Assembly: GCA_023664605.1 (NCBI GenBank)
Contig: JAMPFF010000033.1
Coordinates: 1-32,793, forward strand
Direction: 5' to 3'
Source of the DNA: Clostridium sp.
GTDB lineage: Bacteria; Bacillota; Clostridia; Lachnospirales; Lachnospiraceae
Length of the DNA: 32,793 bases
In this document: in pieces, positions 1-11,586 of the stretch
How positions within the stretch are numbered: position 1 is the first letter of the stretch
Layout of the letters: every line of letters starts with the position of its first letter
Translations under genes and position numbers: made by a program
The notes under the pieces: model-generated
What the model was told of the DNA's origin: nothing
Seen by the model: the letters and a program-made list of their open reading frames with translations, nothing else
Databases searched by the model: none

Positions 1-18
1 AGGAGGTGATTCTTATAA

Positions 19-531
19 ATGGCACGAATTAACTTAGGTCATGTAAAAGGCACTGGAATAAAAGCTGTTATTGAATACTTTGGTTTATCAAAAAGTAATA
101 CTACAGAGCCTACAAACTGGCAAACAACCTGTCCATTAATGACTGATAAAGATAAATATTTATGGAGTTATTCTATAATTCAATTTGACGATAATAAAAC
201 AGATGATATTCAAACAAATAAAAGGGTTATTGGAACTTATGGCGACCACGGCACTTTATGGTCTTATGGCACTTCTATCACTGGTTCAAGCAAGAATCCA
301 ACCGTATTCCCTGATTCTGGTATATCTTATGCTGTTTTGGGTGATGCATATGTGAACATTGAAACATGGGACGTATATGAGTGTGTTACTGGCGGTGATG
401 CTAATACAGCAACATGGAGATATTTAAATAATATCAAGGGCGAAACTGGTGACAATGGCATTTCCGGAATTGAATATTATGAGAATGAACCTACAAGTAT
501 AATGAGTGGAATGACGTGGATTGGAAACTAA
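19..531 (+). CDS. Phage tail/baseplate-associated protein with collagen-like stretch
   Basis: A 170-residue protein built of modules seen in tail fibres and minor structural proteins of Firmicutes phages. A segment around residues 10-75 (GTGIKAVIEYFGLS..., DKYLWSYSIIQFDD, RVIGTYGDHG) resembles the repeated Tyr/Trp-rich modules of those proteins. A second segment, LGDAYVNIETWDVYECVTGG, is followed by a short Gly-rich collagen-like linker (GETGDNGISG) and an end of the form MTWIGN. The start is set by a perfect AGGAGG at bases 1-6 before the ATG at 19. The next gene follows 15 bases after the stop with its own AGGAGG, so the two are probably co-transcribed. The protein is short for a tail fibre and could be one piece of a split structural gene. 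Family assignment is from residue pattern only. Confidence 0.6.
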   Translation: MARINLGHVKGTGIKAVIEYFGLSKSNTTEPTNWQTTCPLMTDKDKYLWSYSIIQFDDNKTDDIQTNKRVIGTYGDHGTLWSYGTSITGSSKNPTVFPDSGISYAVLGDAYVNIETWDVYECVTGGDANTATWRYLNNIKGETGDNGISGIEYYENEPTSIMSGMTWIGN

Positions 532-546
532 AGGAGGGAAACGATT

Positions 547-882
547 ATGTCACAATATGAACATGAGTTTAGTAGTTTTCCTTCCAAGAAAATTACCAGA
601 CATGATTTTAAAAATGTAGATGATAACATAGCAGATGTTATCAATCAAATCAATTCTCTTCGTTCACAGGGGTTATATAATCAGGCTTCTCGTATTATAC
701 AGAATAACTTTGATATACTCTCCCATTACATAGTTGACGCTATTACTTTTAGGACTTGGGAAGAAGAAATTTATAATACCCAGAAATATGCACGACAAGT
801 ACAGCAGTCTATTTACTTTGATGAATCTGAGGAAGATTTTGATGGTATAGAGGGTGATGTGTGGCTTGGGGGTGATAGTTAA
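547..882 (+). CDS. Small phage protein, paralogue of the next gene
   Basis: A 111-residue acidic protein of unknown function. It begins after AAAGGAGGG with an ATG at 547. The middle (SLRSQGLYNQASRIIQNN) is predicted helical. The C-terminus carries IYFDESEEDF and ends EGDVWLGGDS. The next protein has the same order of elements (LIAQGKYSEASDYINQQ, then IYYDEEERF, then KGTIWM), so the two are likely diverged tandem duplicates. The stop overlaps the next start as TAATG, which suggests translational coupling. Its place between a tail protein and the variable tail protein suggests a structural or tail-associated role; that is inference only. Confidence 0.6.
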   Translation: MSQYEHEFSSFPSKKITRHDFKNVDDNIADVINQINSLRSQGLYNQASRIIQNNFDILSHYIVDAITFRTWEEEIYNTQKYARQVQQSIYFDESEEDFDGIEGDVWLGGDS

Positions 883-1337
883 TGCTATGTAATCCTATGT
901 CCTGCTATCCCTATAAGGTTGACCCTATGGTATTTTTTCAGGATAATAATCTTGAAAAAGTAGAAATCATGCAGCATTATAATGATTTAATTGCACAGGG
1001 TAAATATAGTGAAGCAAGCGATTATATTAATCAGCAGGAAGGCATTTATGGATTTTTTTCTGATTTTTTAAATCTTATAGAAAACCGTATTTATGCAACA
1101 CAAGAATACTTGTTGAGTAAGCCACCTAAAAAGCAACCTTGTATCTATTATGATGAGGAAGAAAGGTTTTCTATCGGTGACTTACATATCTTTGATGATA
1201 ATGATATAGAAGAAGATTTATCATCTGTCTCATTATTTTCAGATAATGACGAAGAAGAATCGTCTGATGGTCTTTGTATGTTTACAGGCGAAGAAGCACC
1301 GCCTCCTAATGCAGTCAAAGGAACTATCTGGATGTAA
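882..1337 (+). CDS. Small acidic phage protein, paralogue of the preceding gene
   Basis: A 151-residue protein whose ATG at 882 shares its A with the stop of the preceding gene. Residues 30-75 (IMQHYNDLIAQGKYSEASDYIN, with NRIYATQEYLL after it) match the preceding protein. The C-terminal third adds an acidic stretch rich in Asp, Glu and Ser, and the protein ends APPPNAVKGTIWM. Ends of the type G-(D/T)-(V/I)-W are common in small proteins next to tail genes of Firmicutes prophages. I do not recognise a defined function. An intrinsic terminator follows at 1368-1390. Confidence 0.6.
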   Translation: MLCNPMSCYPYKVDPMVFFQDNNLEKVEIMQHYNDLIAQGKYSEASDYINQQEGIYGFFSDFLNLIENRIYATQEYLLSKPPKKQPCIYYDEEERFSIGDLHIFDDNDIEEDLSSVSLFSDNDEEESSDGLCMFTGEEAPPPNAVKGTIWM

Positions 1338-1367
1338 ATAAAATAACAAATAATATTAAATATCAAG

Positions 1368-1390
1368 ACACCTTTCGAGGTGTTTTTTTT
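1368..1390 (+). terminator. Intrinsic terminator just upstream of the variable tail gene
   Basis: A six-base-pair stem ACACCT/AGGTGT closes a stable TTCG tetraloop and is followed directly by a run of eight T (1383-1390). It ends only 22 bases before the ATG of the variable tail gene, which leaves no room for a promoter between them. Confidence 0.75.
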
Positions 1391-1412
1391 GATGAAGAAA
1401 GGAAAAATTCAT

Positions 1413-2006
1413 ATGGCAATAAATGAACAAATTGTAACAGGAAGAAAGTGGAGAACACTTGTTGATGAAGCTACTAAACTATGGCAGAGAATTTCTTTTT
1501 GGACTAAGGCAAGTGATGTAGAGTTTGATGATGGACAAACTGCGGAAAATAAAATGGGCGCAATTAGCGGTATTACGTCTGATTTGAATGGTGAATCTGA
1601 AAATATTGCTGCTTCTATTAAGGCGGTTAATCAACTAAATAATCAATTAAACGGCTGTGATTTTAATCCAAAGGAAGATGGTTTATATGTAACTTATACT
1701 CTTCCGGGAGGTGCTGATTCAGTCACAAAAAAATTGGGTGAATATGAGGTTATATCTGGTCAATATACATTGTCATACACCAGTCAAATTCGCACTGTAC
1801 CTGTTCCGCGTCGTCCGCGGTTAATACTGATAGATTGTATTTCAGGTCAGGGCGTAAACCTAAAAGGCGGTTTTTGGTCTGGAATAGAAAAAGCAAATAG
1901 TTCTCAAACAGTAAGCTGGTATGTAAAGTCTGTTTCAGACAGTCAAGTAGTTTTCGGAACACTTTGGGATACTACAATCACTTGGCAGTATTATATTCTA
2001 TATTAA
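1413..2006 (+). CDS. Phase-variable phage tail protein, expressed form (cassette A)
   Basis: A 197-residue protein. The ATG at 1413 is chosen because GAAGAAAGG precedes it at good spacing; a GTG at 1380 lies inside a terminator. Residues 1-74 (MAINEQIVTGRKWRTLVDEA..., SFWTKASDVEFDDGQTAENK, SDLNGESENIAASIKAVNQ) resemble the conserved N-terminus of Lachnospiraceae phage tail proteins and form the constant part. Residues 75-79 (LNNQL) are encoded across the 14-base recombination core at 1636-1649. Residues 80-197 are the variable part, with a GADSV motif and the pattern RPRLILIDC. Three silent cassettes downstream carry the same LNNQL junction in the same frame. The stop lies six bases from the stop of convergent cassette B. 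The likely role is host-surface recognition at the tail tip, inferred from similar systems. Confidence 0.75.
   Translation: MAINEQIVTGRKWRTLVDEATKLWQRISFWTKASDVEFDDGQTAENKMGAISGITSDLNGESENIAASIKAVNQLNNQLNGCDFNPKEDGLYVTYTLPGGADSVTKKLGEYEVISGQYTLSYTSQIRTVPVPRRPRLILIDCISGQGVNLKGGFWSGIEKANSSQTVSWYVKSVSDSQVVFGTLWDTTITWQYYILY
1636..1649 (+). repeat. Inversion site 1, at the constant/variable junction
   Basis: Core TAAATAATCAATTA inside the tail gene. It is identical to the cores of sites 2, 3 and 4. Its left arm (AATCAAC) belongs to the constant region and differs from the TTTACTCCAT arm of the other three sites, as expected if strand exchange takes place within the core. With cassette B the identity extends to TAAATAATCAATTAAACGG. 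The core is an imperfect dyad (TTAA at one end, TTAA-like at the other). Confidence 0.8.
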
Positions 2007-2012
2007 CTTTTG

Positions 2013-2437
2013 TTAATTAAATGGTGAATCTGCAAACATATATGAATATCCGCTGTTTTCGTTTAAATCCATTTTTTTACCTTTTACAAGTTTACCATAA
2101 TCGCTACTGCCGTTAGGAGATATACTTTTATAGTACACATTTTGCAATGCAGTGACCCACATATAGTTGCTTTCTCTTTCTCTATATAATTTAAGTAGTT
2201 TTATATCAAACAAATCAACATCTAAAGATGTATTTGAATTGACCGAGACAAATGTTTGTTTCAGTTCAGATTCATCAATAAAACTAAAAGATAACATAGT
2301 ATCAATAATCCTATGGTAAACAGTTAATATTATAACTTTATCGAAACTACCCAATTTTTTTCGCACTGCATCAGCACCTACAATATAAAAATCTTTCCCG
2401 GACTGCTCAAAGGAGCAACCGTTTAATTGATTATTTA
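2013..2437 (-). CDS. Silent C-terminal cassette B of the variable tail protein
   Basis: An open frame without its own start signal that runs leftward from inversion site 2. Read from the core it gives LNNQLNGCSFEQSGKDFYIV, then GADAVRKKLGSF, which matches LNNQLNGCDF...GADSVTKKLGEY of cassette A. Fused to the constant region it would give a protein of about 215 residues, 136 of them from the cassette. Beyond the first 35 residues it differs from A, C and D and lacks the RPRLILI-type pattern. It converges tail to tail with cassette A; the two stops are six bases apart. An internal GTG at 2366 is not a convincing start. Confidence 0.75.
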
Positions 2438-2447
2438 ATGGAGTAAA
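2424..2447 (-). repeat. Inversion site 2 (cassette B)
   Basis: On the minus strand the site reads TTTACTCCAT followed by TAAATAATCAATTA, 24 bases identical to sites 3 and 4. Its orientation is opposite to site 1, so recombination between them inverts bases of about 1640-2435 and replaces cassette A with B. Confidence 0.8.
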
Positions 2448-2531
2448 TTTTTTATTATATTACTAGTTACAAATGTAAAGATTTAATACTTTATATCGTA
2501 TATTTATCATAATTTAATATTAATATTTTAT

Positions 2532-2557
2532 GAGATGCCGATTTATTTTGACATCTC
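2532..2557. other. Hairpin in the leader of the 247-residue tail-associated gene
   Basis: GAGATG (2532-2537) and CATCTC (2552-2557) can pair around a 14-base AT-rich loop, followed by TTCTTTAG. The T run is broken, so termination is uncertain. The rest of 2450-2577 is AT-rich with no other clear signal apart from the AAAGGAGA ribosome binding site. Confidence 0.3.
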
Positions 2558-2577
2558 TTCTTTAGAAAGGAGAATTT

Positions 2578-3321
2578 ATGAGTAAAATTATTTTTCTCAA
2601 AAATCCATCTTATATATATGATGCTGAATTCTATCAAATCGGACAGCATCAAATCAGATTAGTTTTTACAAACCAAATACCTAAAAATGATATTCTTTTA
2701 TCAGGGTTACAATTAGTTAATGAATACAATGGATTTATTCAAACCAAACGTGAAGATTATAAGTATATTTACAGAAAATATGATGATAATCCATTAATGG
2801 TTGAATTATGTAATGATGACATTGAATATGTTGAGCCAGAACCAGTTGTTATTCCAGAACCAGAGCCTTATGTGCCTACATATAAAGAAGTTTTAACTAA
2901 CAAAATTAATGAATTGTCTTATATCTGTCAAGCTACTATTGAGTCTGGTTTAGAGATTAATGGTTTACACTACTCTTATACCGAAAAAGACCAAATTAAT
3001 TTGAATGATATTGTAAGTACTGTAAAACTTACAGGACTACCACTTGGGTATCATGCAGACAGTCAAAATTGTGCTGAATATACTGCTGAAGAATTAATGA
3101 GCATTTATATTAAACTTGCTATGAATAAATATTGTCAACAGACCTACTTCAATCAGTCAAGAGAATATTTAAAGTCTTTAGAAGAGTCAGATAAAAATAA
3201 GAAAATTATCGAATCGTATGCTTATGGCACACCATTAACAGGAAGTTACCTTGAAACTTACAATAATATGGTTAATTTATATAATGCTCAAATTCAAGCA
3301 TTATTCCCTGATACAAAATAA
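2578..3321 (+). CDS. Phage tail-associated protein, DUF4376-like
   Basis: A 247-residue protein with an ATG at 2578 preceded by AAAGGAGA. Residues 1-80 (KIIFLKNPSYIYDAEF...) form a compact N-terminal part. A Pro/Glu-rich linker (PEPVVIPEPEPYVP) at about residues 87-100 leads to a helical C-terminal part, with CQATIESGLEINGLHYSYTE and DQINLNDIVSTV, like the DUF4376 domain of tail-fibre-assembly-type proteins. It lies between inversion sites 2 and 3, so its orientation would flip whenever those sites or sites 1 and 4 recombine. Position and domain type suggest a chaperone or structural partner of the variable tail protein. The domain call is from residue pattern and is moderately sure; the role is inference. 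Confidence 0.55.
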   Translation: MSKIIFLKNPSYIYDAEFYQIGQHQIRLVFTNQIPKNDILLSGLQLVNEYNGFIQTKREDYKYIYRKYDDNPLMVELCNDDIEYVEPEPVVIPEPEPYVPTYKEVLTNKINELSYICQATIESGLEINGLHYSYTEKDQINLNDIVSTVKLTGLPLGYHADSQNCAEYTAEELMSIYIKLAMNKYCQQTYFNQSREYLKSLEESDKNKKIIESYAYGTPLTGSYLETYNNMVNLYNAQIQALFPDTK

Positions 3322-3356
3322 ATTATAAAAAATGCCTCGATTCAAACATATGTTCG

Positions 3357-3410
3357 TATTATAATAGTCTCTACATACACATTAAATTCATAAAGGAGGC
3401 TATTATAATA
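3357..3410 (+). promoter_or_regulatory. -10-like box and RBS-sequestering inverted repeat before the recombinase
   Basis: The arms TATTATAATAGTCTC (3357-3371) and GAGGCTATTATAATA (3396-3410) pair over 15 positions, with one G-U pair, around a 24-base loop. The 3' arm contains most of the GGAGG ribosome binding site and the A of the ATG. The 5' arm contains TATAAT (3360-3365), a plausible -10 box, though no good -35 is seen. A transcript started there would lack most of the 5' arm and leave the ribosome binding site free. A transcript entering from upstream would fold and hide it. Confidence 0.5.
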
Positions 3411-4423
3411 TGACAATGCAAAAAATTGATAAGGATTATTTATTTAAGGTAACAGTGAGAATGATTGGTGATGAGATGCATTTTAATGATACACAAATGC
3501 AAAAATCAATTAATATTCTCACCAATGTTTTTTCTGAGGTTGATTTCGTTTCTTCTGAAAACATGCTGTCAATCAACAAATGTGGCAATAATACTATCAT
3601 TAAAAATTTTGTAGGCTGTAAAAGGCTTGCAGGTATTAAAGACAGTAGTTTGGAACAATATGTAATAAGCGTTTCTTCTTTACTAAAATACTGTCCAAAA
3701 GATTTAATTCAAATTACTACCGACGATATTAGGCGATTTTTATTAAATTATGAGAAAACTGTATGTAAAACTACTGCTAATAATTGTAGAAGAAACTTAA
3801 ATGTATTTTTTCAGTTTATGGAAGATGAAGAATATATACCTAAAAATCCCGTAAAGAAAATACCTAAAATAAAAGAAGGAAAGAAATATAAACGGTTTTA
3901 TACGGATTTAGAAATTGAATCTATGCGAGATGCTTGTATTAATAAGCGTGAATTGGCATTGATAGACCTATTAATTTCTTCTGGTCTACGAGTCAGTGAA
4001 GTAAGTAACATTATGTTATCTGAGATAAATTGGGAATCAAGAACAATTATTATTCATGGTAAGGGTGACAAAGATAGGATTGTGCCATTTACGATACGAT
4101 GTAAAAAACATTTACAGGAGTATTTATTAGAAAGAGGACTTATAAGCAATTATTTGTTTTGTGCCACAAAAAGTCCATATAATAAATTAGGTACGGGTAC
4201 AATTAATAACATAGTTAAAACTGTTGGCGCAAGAATTGGGCTGCCTAATATTACTGTACATTGTTTTAGGCGATGGCTTGCAAGTGATTTAAATAAAAAG
4301 GGTGTTGACCCAACAATTATTCAAGAAATATTAGGTCATGCTTCTTTTGAAACCACCCAAAAACACTACTTATCAAAATCATATGATAAAATATCATATA
4401 TACATAATGTATATGCAGGATAA
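3410..4423 (+). CDS. Tyrosine recombinase, probable shufflon invertase
   Basis: A 337-residue protein, complete and of usual length for an integrase/Xer-type tyrosine recombinase. It has an N-terminal core-binding domain (about 70-150) and a catalytic domain (about 160-335). All catalytic residues are visible: Arg194 (SSGLRVSEV), Lys218 (GKGDKDR), His284 and Arg287 (HCFRRW), His310 (LGHAS) and the nucleophile Tyr320 (QKHYL). The start is ATG 3410 after AAAGGAGG. It lies between inversion sites 2 and 3, inside the array of cassettes, which points to inversion of those cassettes as its task, much as Rci acts in the R64 shufflon. It could instead be an integrase, but it is about 1.3 kb from the probable attachment boundary and has no excisionase beside it. 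Expression may be limited by the hairpin over its ribosome binding site. Confidence 0.85.
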   Translation: MTMQKIDKDYLFKVTVRMIGDEMHFNDTQMQKSINILTNVFSEVDFVSSENMLSINKCGNNTIIKNFVGCKRLAGIKDSSLEQYVISVSSLLKYCPKDLIQITTDDIRRFLLNYEKTVCKTTANNCRRNLNVFFQFMEDEEYIPKNPVKKIPKIKEGKKYKRFYTDLEIESMRDACINKRELALIDLLISSGLRVSEVSNIMLSEINWESRTIIIHGKGDKDRIVPFTIRCKKHLQEYLLERGLISNYLFCATKSPYNKLGTGTINNIVKTVGARIGLPNITVHCFRRWLASDLNKKGVDPTIIQEILGHASFETTQKHYLSKSYDKISYIHNVYAG

Positions 4424-4474
4424 AATTTGTAAGGATTATTACTCTGTTGAGTGGTAATCCTTATTTTTTACGAT

Positions 4475-4498
4475 TTTACTCCATTAAATAATCAATTA
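4475..4498 (+). repeat. Inversion site 3 (cassette C)
   Basis: TTTACTCCAT followed by TAAATAATCAATTA, 24 bases identical to sites 2 and 4. It has the same orientation as site 1. Recombination with site 2 would invert the central unit holding the recombinase, and recombination with site 4 would swap cassettes C and D. Recombination with site 1 would delete the segment that carries the recombinase. Confidence 0.8.
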
Positions 4499-4861
4499 AA
4501 GGGCTTTGACCCCGTACTTGATAAATCTGGCAAAATTACTGGATATAAAACCAGTATTGGAGGTGCAGATACAGTATTCCCTTTTAGTTCGTTTTATCTT
4601 CTAGAATCTGGTACCGCCACTGTTTATCCATGGGCAACGACTATATCACTTAAAAATAAAACCAAGCCTAAAGTCATCATTACGTACAGTGTTTCCAGTA
4701 ATTATCATAACGCCGTATATTGGGAACCAGGCGCATATGGATTAGATGACAGACTAACAAACAACGACCATCTATTGCCATACGACGTAACCGATACATC
4801 ATTTAAGATAAAAAGTGGAAATGAAGTCACATATACAGTCAATTACTGGTGTTTTGGTTAA
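4485..4861 (+). CDS. Silent C-terminal cassette C of the variable tail protein
   Basis: An open frame running from inversion site 3 without its own start signal; a GTG at 4451 has no ribosome binding site. From the core it reads LNNQLKGFDPVLDKSGKI, followed by IGGADTVFPF and later NKTKPKVIITYSV. The GGADTV and KPKVIIT patterns correspond to GGADSV and RPRLILI in cassette A and to GADTF and RPQIIIG in D. Fused to the constant region it would give about 199 residues. It converges with cassette D, the two stops being one base apart. Reaching the expressed position needs two inversions (C/D swap, then sites 1 and 4) or a deletion between sites 1 and 3. Confidence 0.75.
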
Positions 4862-4862
4862 A

Positions 4863-5218
4863 TTAATACGCATATTTATAATGCCATCCTCTACTTTCAT
4901 TGTTTAGTAATACAAAACGGTCATCGTAAACAGCTAACCAACCAGTAAAGTTGGAAAAAGTTGAGCTTTGTTTTCCACCATCGATATTGATATAGAAAAA
5001 GCCGTACCCATGCCATTCTGTTCCGATGATAATTTGAGGTCGAGCAGGAGTCTTAATTGTGACGTTATCGCCTGATGTATAGCCCTCAACCCATGTCAAA
5101 TTAAGAAAAGGGATGAATGTATCAGCACCCCGCGCAGGGTCGGTGTTAAACCCATACTTGCCGTTCTGAACATCCGGACAGAATATAGTACCATCCGGGA
5201 ACGATAATTGATTATTTA
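4863..5218 (-). CDS. Silent C-terminal cassette D of the variable tail protein
   Basis: An open frame running leftward from inversion site 4. It reads LNNQLSFPDGTIFCPDVQNG, then RGADTFIPFLNLTW, then ARPQIIIGTEWHGYGFFYIN, with the same layout as cassettes A and C. Joined to the constant region it would give about 192 residues. It has no start codon with a ribosome binding site; a TTG at 5099 is internal. One inversion between sites 1 and 4 (about 1640-5215) would express it and would flip the recombinase and the 247-residue gene at the same time. Confidence 0.75.
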
Positions 5219-5228
5219 ATGGAGTAAA
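5205..5228 (-). repeat. Inversion site 4 (cassette D), right edge of the array
   Basis: On the minus strand TTTACTCCAT followed by TAAATAATCAATTA, identical over 24 bases to sites 2 and 3 and opposite in orientation to sites 1 and 3. The bases to its right (5229-5390) are AT-rich and show no gene. Confidence 0.8.
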
Positions 5229-5390
5229 TATACAAATCTATCGTGTTATAATCTCATATAGTATTAAATAAGCGATAAAAATGTAATTATGAAAAATTAT
5301 CGAATTTAATATTTTATTTGCCAAATAAAGCCGTTAGACGTGTTTATTAATGTGTTGTAGATTATTATATTGACTCTAATTTAAATATTT

Positions 5391-5537
5391 TTATTGACAT
5401 TCATTAACATCAAATTCTATAGTATCGCCCTCTTGTATATCTTCCGTAAACCATCTTCTGGCAATATCTATAAGACTGCCATTATCAAGTTGACAATTTA
5501 CTACCATGTCATCAATTCGCAAAATTGTAAGTTTCAT
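5391..5537 (-). CDS. Small DUF3006-like protein
   Basis: A 48-residue protein. The ATG at 5537 is preferred over an upstream in-frame start because GAAAGGG lies about nine bases before it. The sequence (MKLTILRIDDMVVNCQLDNG, then IARRWFTEDIQEGDTIEFDV) matches the pattern of DUF3006: a short beta-rich protein starting with a hydrophobic strand, an ID/RIE-like motif, and the EGD turn near the end. The function of the family is unknown to me. It is the last gene of the AT-rich element and is transcribed opposite to the tail genes. It lies about 220 bases from the disrupted germination gene. Confidence 0.55.
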   Translation of the reverse strand: MKLTILRIDDMVVNCQLDNGSLIDIARRWFTEDIQEGDTIEFDVNECQ

Positions 5538-5678
5538 AAAATAACACCCTTTCGCCATATCACATTGATTATATTGTAACATTAAAGAGATATTATTGCA
5601 CTATTTTAAAAATATTGATATTATAGCAATTACTTTATTATATCCAATTAATTATTATCATATCAAAGCTCTTAAAAT

Positions 5679-5765
5679 GGTGTAAATTTGGTGTAAAATA
5701 AGTTTATATCAGTATCAGATTGTTGATTTTACGGTATTTATCAAGGTTTGTAGTTACTTCCGAGT
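5679..5765. other. Probable prophage attachment junction
   Basis: Base composition changes sharply here. On the minus strand the germination protein frame follows its family up to SGWFNSEV (about 5762) and then reads TTNLDKYRKINNLILI and a stop. Close by, GGTGTAAA occurs twice (5680-5687 and 5691-5698) and could be arm-type integrase sites. The exact core cannot be set from one end. Confidence 0.5.
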
Positions 5766-10593: not shown

Positions 10594-11586
10594 TTATTGA
10601 TAATTTTTAATGACATTACGCAGATAATCCCGATACTGCCCGACAATATCGGCCGGCGCTATCAGACATGCCCCGTCTCCCAACCCGGTAAGCCATCCGA
10701 AAAACTGACCGCTGACAGCCACCGTCACCCGGACGGAAAAATGTCCGTCATCCCTTTGGCGGATGGAAACATCCCTGCCGAACCTATCCATAACAACCCC
10801 TATTAAATGATTTTGGAATTGTATGGTAACGCTCTGCTCTATTCCACCAAACATACCGAATGTCTTATTCGCATAATCCGCAATGTCAAACCGTTCAAAA
10901 AGAGACGCTCCCTCTCTTTTCACCCCCGTCAATATCTGTATATTGCCCATCTTATCCACACGGAAATGCTTTATTTTATCTTCCTCTTTATCATGTGCAA
11001 TCAGATAATAATTCTCATCCTTACAGGTAAGCGCCCACGGACTTATACGGTATAGTTTTCCCTCTTTGCGCGGAACAAGCTGTTTTTCCAAATTCCATTC
11101 CAGATATTGAAAGGAAATCTGCTCATTGTTCTGTATGGCCTTATGGATATCGTCCACAATATAATATATGCTTTCATTGGCGGTTTTAATGCGGTTTGCC
11201 ACATATACCTGCCTCTGTAGCTGCTTTGCCTCTGATTTGGAAGCCAGTTTTTCAATTTTATCGATAAGCTCCCTTGATTTTTTCAGCGTAATAAATTTGG
11301 AGGACTGCACGACCTCCACCAAAAGCTTTAACTCCGCAAGCTCAAACTCCCTGCTCGCCAGATAATAACCTCCGTTTACTCTGGACTTCGTCAAAATAAT
11401 ATCATACCCAAAGTCCATTAACTGGTTCATATCGTCATAAATGCTCTTCCGTTCCGCTTTCACATCATACTTCGCCAGTTCCTCAATAAGCCTTTGCGCA
11501 CTCATACAATGCTCTTCGTCCGTCTGCTCCGATAAAATTTTCAAGATATACAATAATTTCAATTTTTGGTTGGATGATTTCGGCAT
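10594..11586 (-). CDS. WYL-domain transcriptional regulator
   Basis: A 330-residue DeoR/YafY-type regulator. Residues 5-65 are a winged helix-turn-helix (LKLLYILKILSEQT, then MSAQRLIEELAKYD and ERKSIYDDMNQLMDFGYDI). A WYL domain covers about 140-220 (ISFQYLEWN, LYRISPWALTCKDENYYLIA, HFRVDKMGNI), with a C-terminal WCX-like part after it. These proteins usually bind DNA and sense nucleotide-type ligands or DNA damage through WYL. It is the last gene of the minus-strand operon, 15 bases after a small membrane protein gene, and is followed by a clear terminator. The ribosome binding site (AGAGAGA) is weak. The target is not evident from sequence. Confidence 0.85.
   Translation of the reverse strand: MPKSSNQKLKLLYILKILSEQTDEEHCMSAQRLIEELAKYDVKAERKSIYDDMNQLMDFGYDIILTKSRVNGGYYLASREFELAELKLLVEVVQSSKFITLKKSRELIDKIEKLASKSEAKQLQRQVYVANRIKTANESIYYIVDDIHKAIQNNEQISFQYLEWNLEKQLVPRKEGKLYRISPWALTCKDENYYLIAHDKEEDKIKHFRVDKMGNIQILTGVKREGASLFERFDIADYANKTFGMFGGIEQSVTIQFQNHLIGVVMDRFGRDVSIRQRDDGHFSVRVTVAVSGQFFGWLTGLGDGACLIAPADIVGQYRDYLRNVIKNYQ

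Follow-up and report, generated by a model that had tools for sequence, protein, structure and literature searches.

How might a prophage vary the tip of its tail? The question is raised by a stretch of 32,793 nucleotides (nt) from Clostridium sp. of the Lachnospiraceae (contig JAMPFF010000033.1, assembly GCA_023664605.1; hereafter the window), in which the gene of a small phage tail protein is followed by a set of alternative, in-frame gene ends. The source assembly, a draft, comprises 78 contigs, and the left part of the prophage lies off the contig. We are confident that the locus is a shufflon, in which a tyrosine recombinase swaps the C-terminus of the tail protein, and the carrier is a dormant virus in what is probably a gut Clostridia bacterium. 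An initial annotation, made from the letters of the window, had proposed a multiple inversion system acting on a phage tail protein, and this is now supported by an intact recombinase within the array, by four related loci with three to seven sites each, and by the start of silent cassette B, which resembles the exposed cassette of the related locus L043.

The window contains exactly four copies of the 14-base-pair (bp) core TAAATAATCAATTA, at positions and in alternating orientations that agree base for base with those first annotated (Table 1). Three copies was the most that any 14-mer attained in 200 dinucleotide shuffles of positions 1-5700 and in 60 shuffles of the whole window, ruling out a chance repeat as the origin of the cores. 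The three silent sites have a longer repeat of 24 nt in common, TTTACTCCATTAAATAATCAATTA, and translation returns LNNQL in one codon frame at all four cores, as had been claimed. The tail-to-tail pairing of the cassettes also holds, with stops six bases (A/B) and one base (C/D) apart, as do the product sizes: 74 constant residues joined to 123, 141, 125 and 118 residues from A, B, C and D yield proteins of 197, 215, 199 and 192 amino acids (aa) with an identical 79-residue start. For comparison, a frame stayed open over at least 118 codons at 9 of 40,000 random places of shuffled sequence. The additional statement that no cassette but A has a start signal stood only in part; each of the three silent frames is preceded by stop codons, but a mechanical list of open reading frames offers GTG 4451 for C, GTG 2366 for B and TTG 5099 for D. 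The first of these falls within a predicted terminator stem (4429-4464) that may help to hold cassette C silent, and the other two, the only starts listed for their frames, lie inside the cassettes; ribosome-binding sites were judged by eye.

Two genes inside the array had been overlooked, a tyrosine recombinase and a DUF4376-like gene. R194, K218, H284, R287, H310 and Y320 of the recombinase, which we take to be its catalytic residues, are invariant in all four aligned sequences (the window's being one of them). Its relatives of solved structure include XerA, XerC-like and XerD proteins. Housekeeping XerC or XerD identity is nevertheless not supported, as the scores are far under the curated cut-offs (126.9 of 335.15 bits for XerC, 120.9 of 329.6 bits for XerD) and the protein is placed outside the XerC/D-like rows of a tree. 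The cut-off of the XerA_Arch/integron model is likewise unmet (190.6 of 220); the recombinases of L035, L031 and L032 pass this model.

Table 1. Features of the array in the window, with the basis of each assignment
Feature	Positions	Strand	Basis
Intrinsic-terminator-like hairpin directly 5' of shuffled gene	1365..1386	+	hairpin prediction
Constant 5' part of tail protein, 74 codons (79 with LNNQL)	1413..1634	+	ribosome-binding site by eye
Crossover site 1 (expressed)	1636..1649	+	core match; LNNQL codons begin at 1635
Cassette A, expressed C-terminus	1650..2006	+	frame to stop 2006
Cassette B, silent	2013..2423	-	stop 2013; first ~90 nt like L043 exposed cassette
Crossover site 2	2424..2437	-	core match; 25-nt repeat in common with site 4 reaches 2448
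DUF4376-like / phrog_1348 tail-fibre-like gene	2578..3321	+	PHROG E 5.4e-8; Pfam E 0.0023, under cut-off
Predicted recombinase promoter TCGATT-17-TATAAT	3337..3365	+	promoter prediction; LexA-type box in spacer
Tyrosine recombinase, 337 aa, intact, XerC/D-like	3410..4423	+	PF00589 E 4.3e-30, SAM-like domain
Terminator-like hairpin, 16 pairs, recombinase / silent cassette C boundary	4429..4464	+	hairpin prediction
Crossover site 3	4485..4498	+	core match
Cassette C, silent	4499..4861	+	frame to stop 4861
Cassette D, silent	4863..5204	-	frame to stop 4863
Crossover site 4	5205..5218	-	core match; repeat in common with site 2 reaches 5229

In the mechanism that we propose, the recombinase would pair two oppositely oriented 14-bp sites and invert the DNA between them, and the LNNQL frame common to the sites would let any cassette brought to site 1 fuse in frame to the constant 74 residues. 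The recombinase gene, which is enclosed by the array and has a predicted promoter of its own, would flip along with it. A count of configurations gives 16 arrangements reachable by inversion alone, four for every choice of exposed cassette (A, B, C or D); exposing B or D takes one inversion, C two. Sites 1 and 3, and sites 2 and 4, are direct repeats, and deletion is therefore possible too, at the cost of cassettes and recombinase.

Relatives of the array were sought in 77 genomes of the genus (76 with some tyrosine recombinase, E 0.001), in three recombinase scans of viral_contigs or genome_contigs, and with the constant region in 397 genomes of the family, nine of which, the source genome included, gave a match. 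Close phage members carry recombinases 88% (L042), 77% (L043), 73% (L044) and 72% (L045) identical to that of the window, and more distant loci 47% (L026-L029) and 33% (L035); L046-L050 (partial, 28-33% identical; five of the nine loci from one scan) and L055 (one of six from another) were left out of the comparison. The complete arrays are five, those of the window, L042, L043, L045 and L035, with 4, 3, 3, 7 and 4 sites, respectively, those of L044 and L033 being cut by contig ends. In all five, every site is in frame, a single cassette is exposed, and a recombinase of the same group lies in or adjoining the array. The 14-nt cores are identical within a locus, save for one copy in L042 that is one base off, and across loci the sites retain a TAAA..TTA outline with varying centres. 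The layouts differ in detail: the recombinase and the constant gene point in opposite directions in L043 and in the same direction in the window, and the recombinase is placed at the edge in L035. In L045 (7110-11074; Lachnospiraceae bacterium 28-4) we observed a seven-site tail shufflon with one exposed and six silent cassettes, all reading LNSNL in frame, and with two site pairs lying back to back about 45 nt apart; the gene before its exposed site is a different one, resembling the window's constant region near the site only.

We assign the shuffled gene to a tail protein because of its phage tail neighbours, because 2 of the 10 aligned family members match a PHROG tail-fibre family, and because of a sub-threshold match of the window protein to the tail-fibre repeat PF03406 (E 0.0099). 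No PHROG family matches the window protein itself, a search of solved structures with the tail-protein alignment was uninformative (best E 0.22), and the expressed protein gave no tblastn match among phage records. Homologues of the constant region are 59-65% identical over an 80-aa region. The cassettes were matched in 3 of 299 family genomes, one of them the source genome itself, and block-wise comparison reveals how they are built: L042's two silent cassettes match at 29, 29, 30 and 20 of 30 nt in blocks 1-4 and then at chance level, and cassette B agrees with the exposed cassette of L043 at 21, 22 and 29 of 30 nt in blocks 1-3 and then at 9, 9 and 6. Judged from these alignments, the cassette plan is a site, a common adaptor of about 90-100 nt with a GAD motif and a variable tip, such that inversion and homologous exchange within the adaptor would both generate diversity.

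That DNA is rearranged at sites of this type is indicated by more distant phages. In L027 and L028, two metagenomic phages with a recombinase 47% identical to that of the window, a segment of 3996 nt that runs from the site to past the recombinase is 99.3% identical, but a cassette start of 106 nt that L027 exposes lies silent and in inverted orientation in L028, where it is joined at the site. Moreover, the IMG/VR contig 3300021399_000351 (L090 and L088, IMGVR_UViG_3300021399_000351:13680-20498) carries the cassette pair of L027. Past the second site the likeness ends at once, and before the first site the two are poorly alignable; further away, longer matches are 72-75% identical and one 35-nt piece 94%. 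That phages otherwise so diverged have this pair in common suggests a traffic of tail-tip cassettes from phage to phage.

Several results weigh against a working shufflon in the window, or blur the case made by the cousin phages. Past 106 nt the cassettes of L027 and L028 diverge, and the left boundary of the common cassette pair is blurred, with five mismatches that all fall within the first 64 nt from the first site and none from there to the end of the second; taken together, these two points mean that homologous exchange acts too, and the left boundary could have arisen from such exchange inside the conserved cassette start. The cousin phages furthermore use a different site sequence, of which L027 has two copies with one central base changed between them, and thus they support the mechanism rather than activity in the window strain. 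No recombinase was found in three phage records with the cousin site (3300021399_000351 among them), which are possibly fragments, and no matching inverted repeat was found in L036 despite its related recombinase. For the window locus itself, no alternative arrangement was found, the source genome offering one copy, and no near-identical phage with a different arrangement appeared in the genus, family, viral-contig and IMG/VR scans. A scan of IMG/VR, using a pattern matched by sites 2 and 3 and not by 1 and 4, listed 109 stretches with one match each, among which no window-like array was seen; the second core in one of these stretches belonged to a short tandem repeat in an unrelated gene. Lastly, an AlphaFold2 model of cassette C has a mean predicted local distance difference test (pLDDT) score of 39.8, and no receptor-binding fold emerges from it.

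Such an absence of alternative arrangements would be expected of a former shufflon that no longer inverts in its host. The constant gene also exists without the system: none of the nine fetched regions around its homologues L070-L078, some cut by contig ends, contains a recombinase match, and the shufflon is therefore an optional rather than a fixed part of the tail module. A locked remnant is nonetheless improbable, given a recombinase that is intact with all presumed catalytic residues, four identical cores and three silent frames open over 118-141 codons. Still more improbable is that the cassettes are a reservoir for homologous recombination, the repeats being by-products and not recombinase sites. 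The similarity of cassettes over some 90-100 nt past the site, followed by divergence, and the 64-nt blur at one end of the two-phage cassette pair would both suit such a reservoir, but the other end of the pair is sharp at the site, the outline of the sites is kept across loci with different centres and near-perfect identity within each locus, and a recombinase of the group accompanies every one of the complete arrays.

The recombinase might finally be the integrase of the prophage, with the cores as attachment-site-like repeats, to which we give the least credence of all. It does give PHROG integrase matches, reflecting the same superfamily, and chromosomal-type genes follow the array, placing it near the right end of the prophage. 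However, it groups with recombinases of hsdS arrays (see below), the prophage region of L043 has a separate integrase of 424 aa about 9 kilobases away, and a single coding frame opened by every repeat would not be expected of attachment sites; we rejected the integrase assignment on these three grounds. A tail-protein shufflon thus remains by far the most probable account of the locus.

When would such a shufflon be active? Between the -35 and -10 elements of the predicted recombinase promoter lies a LexA-type box, CAAACATATGTTCG, at 3343-3356, where the Clostridia-type operator GAACnnnnGTTT/C is present on the minus strand as CGAACATATGTTTG. A strict box, GAACnnnnGTT(C/T), has been used for C. 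difficile (PMC4234289). By this definition four of the five close-clade loci carry it (the window, L043, L044 and L045, not L042), and L043, L044 and L045 preserve the promoter layout and register with the boxes CGAACAAATGTTCG, CGAACATATGTTTG and AGAACATATGTTTG; these four loci share ancestry and are not independent. L042 has a degraded box further upstream. The strict box was absent upstream of the recombinase in L027 and L029 (0/2), L035 and L036 (0/2) and the hsdS loci (0/5), L033 having too little upstream sequence to be counted, and a looser box was additionally found in L042 and L035 and in none of the other loci. In shuffled 250-nt upstream regions the strict box appears in 0.4-2.9% and the looser one in about 4-12%. 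The source genome has a lexA gene, whose upstream region holds one strict and two looser boxes, and CGAACATATGTTGC with the same core, next to a divergent gene that we presume, from a likeness seen by eye, to be akin to yneA. Speaking against LexA control, CGAACNNNNGTTCG with up to one mismatch occurs at 35 places genome-wide versus 61 for a reversed control; the motif is thus not enriched, and the argument for the SOS response rests on the place and conservation of the box. The YRAACATATGTTYG form occurs once in the genome, at the recombinase promoter. Aggregated, these features make LexA control of the recombinase likely. Expression of the recombinase, and hence shuffling, would then probably rise in the SOS response and prophage induction, and shuffling at that time would yield virions with mixed tail tips. 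The LexA link suggests at what point a prophage should shuffle its tail, namely at induction, and this answer can be tested directly. As to the window strain itself, we infer inversion activity, LexA control and an effect on receptor choice.

Kin of the recombinase are also found away from phages. Three genus genomes (L030, L031 and L032) hold related recombinases (35-38%) among type I restriction genes: each has Methylase_S (PF01420), accompanied by HsdR-type proteins in L030 and L031 and by HsdM in L032. Three sites occur in each, inverted or direct, with the outline TAAA(C/T)..TTTA. In every locus one or more of them encode INNNL or INDNL within a Methylase_S protein; others are found at the end of a gene or lack a clear frame. 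A tree of 26 rows, labelled from context and computed with a program warning that long branches meet, unites the phage and hsdS recombinases in a group separate from the XerC/D-like rows (support 98/95); the phage rows of L035 and L036 are placed on the hsdS side, with lower support (87/88). The further hsdS-type rows L038 and L011 have direct repeats. These comparisons suggest that phage tails and host restriction are served by one and the same diversification module. A recombinase of the same group was also observed in L012 (G022:C50), where it adjoins a small gene pair that by eye is toxin-antitoxin-like, in neither an hsdS nor a phage tail array.

A wider reading joins these threads: a tail-tip shufflon under DNA-damage control, in which the LexA off-state would fix the tail in the lysogen and induction would release recombinase while virions assemble, yielding several tips per lysogen; in which one recombinase group and (L/I)N(N/S/D)(N/Q)L sites would serve phage tails and hsdS; and in which the sites would also act between phages, moving cassette pairs with boundaries at or near crossover sites. 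We hold this combination tentatively, as somewhat short of an even chance, the blur at one exchange boundary lowering the odds a little.

The R64 shufflon exchanges several C-terminal cassettes of pilV at short sfx sites through the tyrosine recombinase Rci, its target being the tip adhesin of a conjugative pilus. The initial annotation placed the window with the R64 kind, which is apt for how the system works; the window's target, however, lies among phage tail genes and its site differs from the sfx sequence. By target, the closest described systems are the Rin shufflons of Actinobacteria prophages. In Bifidobacterium, a tail receptor-binding gene has a constant N-terminus and several variable C-terminal cassettes, and its 11-bp rix site, TTCCCTAACCC, is acted on by a tyrosine recombinase that is armless, XerD-like and separate from the integrase of the prophage (PMC6109161). 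The window shares with it the constant N-terminus, the silent in-frame cassettes, the short repeats and the tyrosine recombinase in the array, but differs in its Clostridia host and in its site (TAAATAATCAATTA instead of the rix sequence). Its recombinase and DUF4376-like gene lie inside the invertible array rather than at the edge, as in Rin and also in L035, and its recombinase promoter has a LexA-type box, the Rin promoter being outside the comparison. The authors of the Rin study likewise raise the question of how deletion is avoided (PMC6109161). A Rin-type shufflon in Eggerthella lenta prophages is alike in its tyrosine recombinase, variable small genes and short repeat, has a separate integrase, as does the prophage region of L043, and differs in its 8-bp repeat, ttccgtat, its often H-type lectin cassettes and its Actinobacteria host (PMC8778435, in extract). 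Pneumococcal PsrA of the cod/hsdS locus is a tyrosine recombinase that inverts gene ends at a 15-bp repeat in the hsdS coding sequence (PMC4948785, PMC7096588, both in extract); its target is a restriction-modification specificity subunit rather than a tail protein, the letters of the 15-bp IR1 repeat did not turn up in the text searched, and the hsdS arrays set beside the window are L030-L032. The Min, Cin and Gin systems also swap phage tail-fibre ends by inversion (PMC6109161, in extract), but with serine recombinases. Among open-licence PubMed Central titles and abstract starts (subscription papers lying outside), there was no Clostridia phage tail shufflon with a tyrosine recombinase and no LexA-controlled tail invertase. 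As far as these sources go, the kind is already defined by the Rin shufflons (PMC6109161, PMC8778435), and the features that look new here are the host group, the site, the recombinase inside the array and the LexA-type promoter. Tyrosine-recombinase tail shufflons are thereby extended from Actinobacteria prophages to Clostridia phages, including a seven-site array.

Minor features of the locus have counterparts among its relatives. DUF4376-like homologues adjoin the recombinase in L042 and L044, and in L035 by eye only (no Pfam match); one without a recombinase is in L072. The hairpin directly before the tail gene (1365-1386) has a similar one, by eye, in L042, and none was seen for L043, L035 and L070; it suggests separate control of the tail gene. 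Among the constant-gene homologues, L072 (7201-10798) carries four tandem constant-gene-like genes or fragments in a region with no recombinase match. The fetched region of L075 gave no recombinase match and holds, at 11090-11375, a tail-like gene end between an inverted pair of TAAACAGCAATTTA, the core being as in L045; judged by eye, inversion there would cut the product short after LNSNL.

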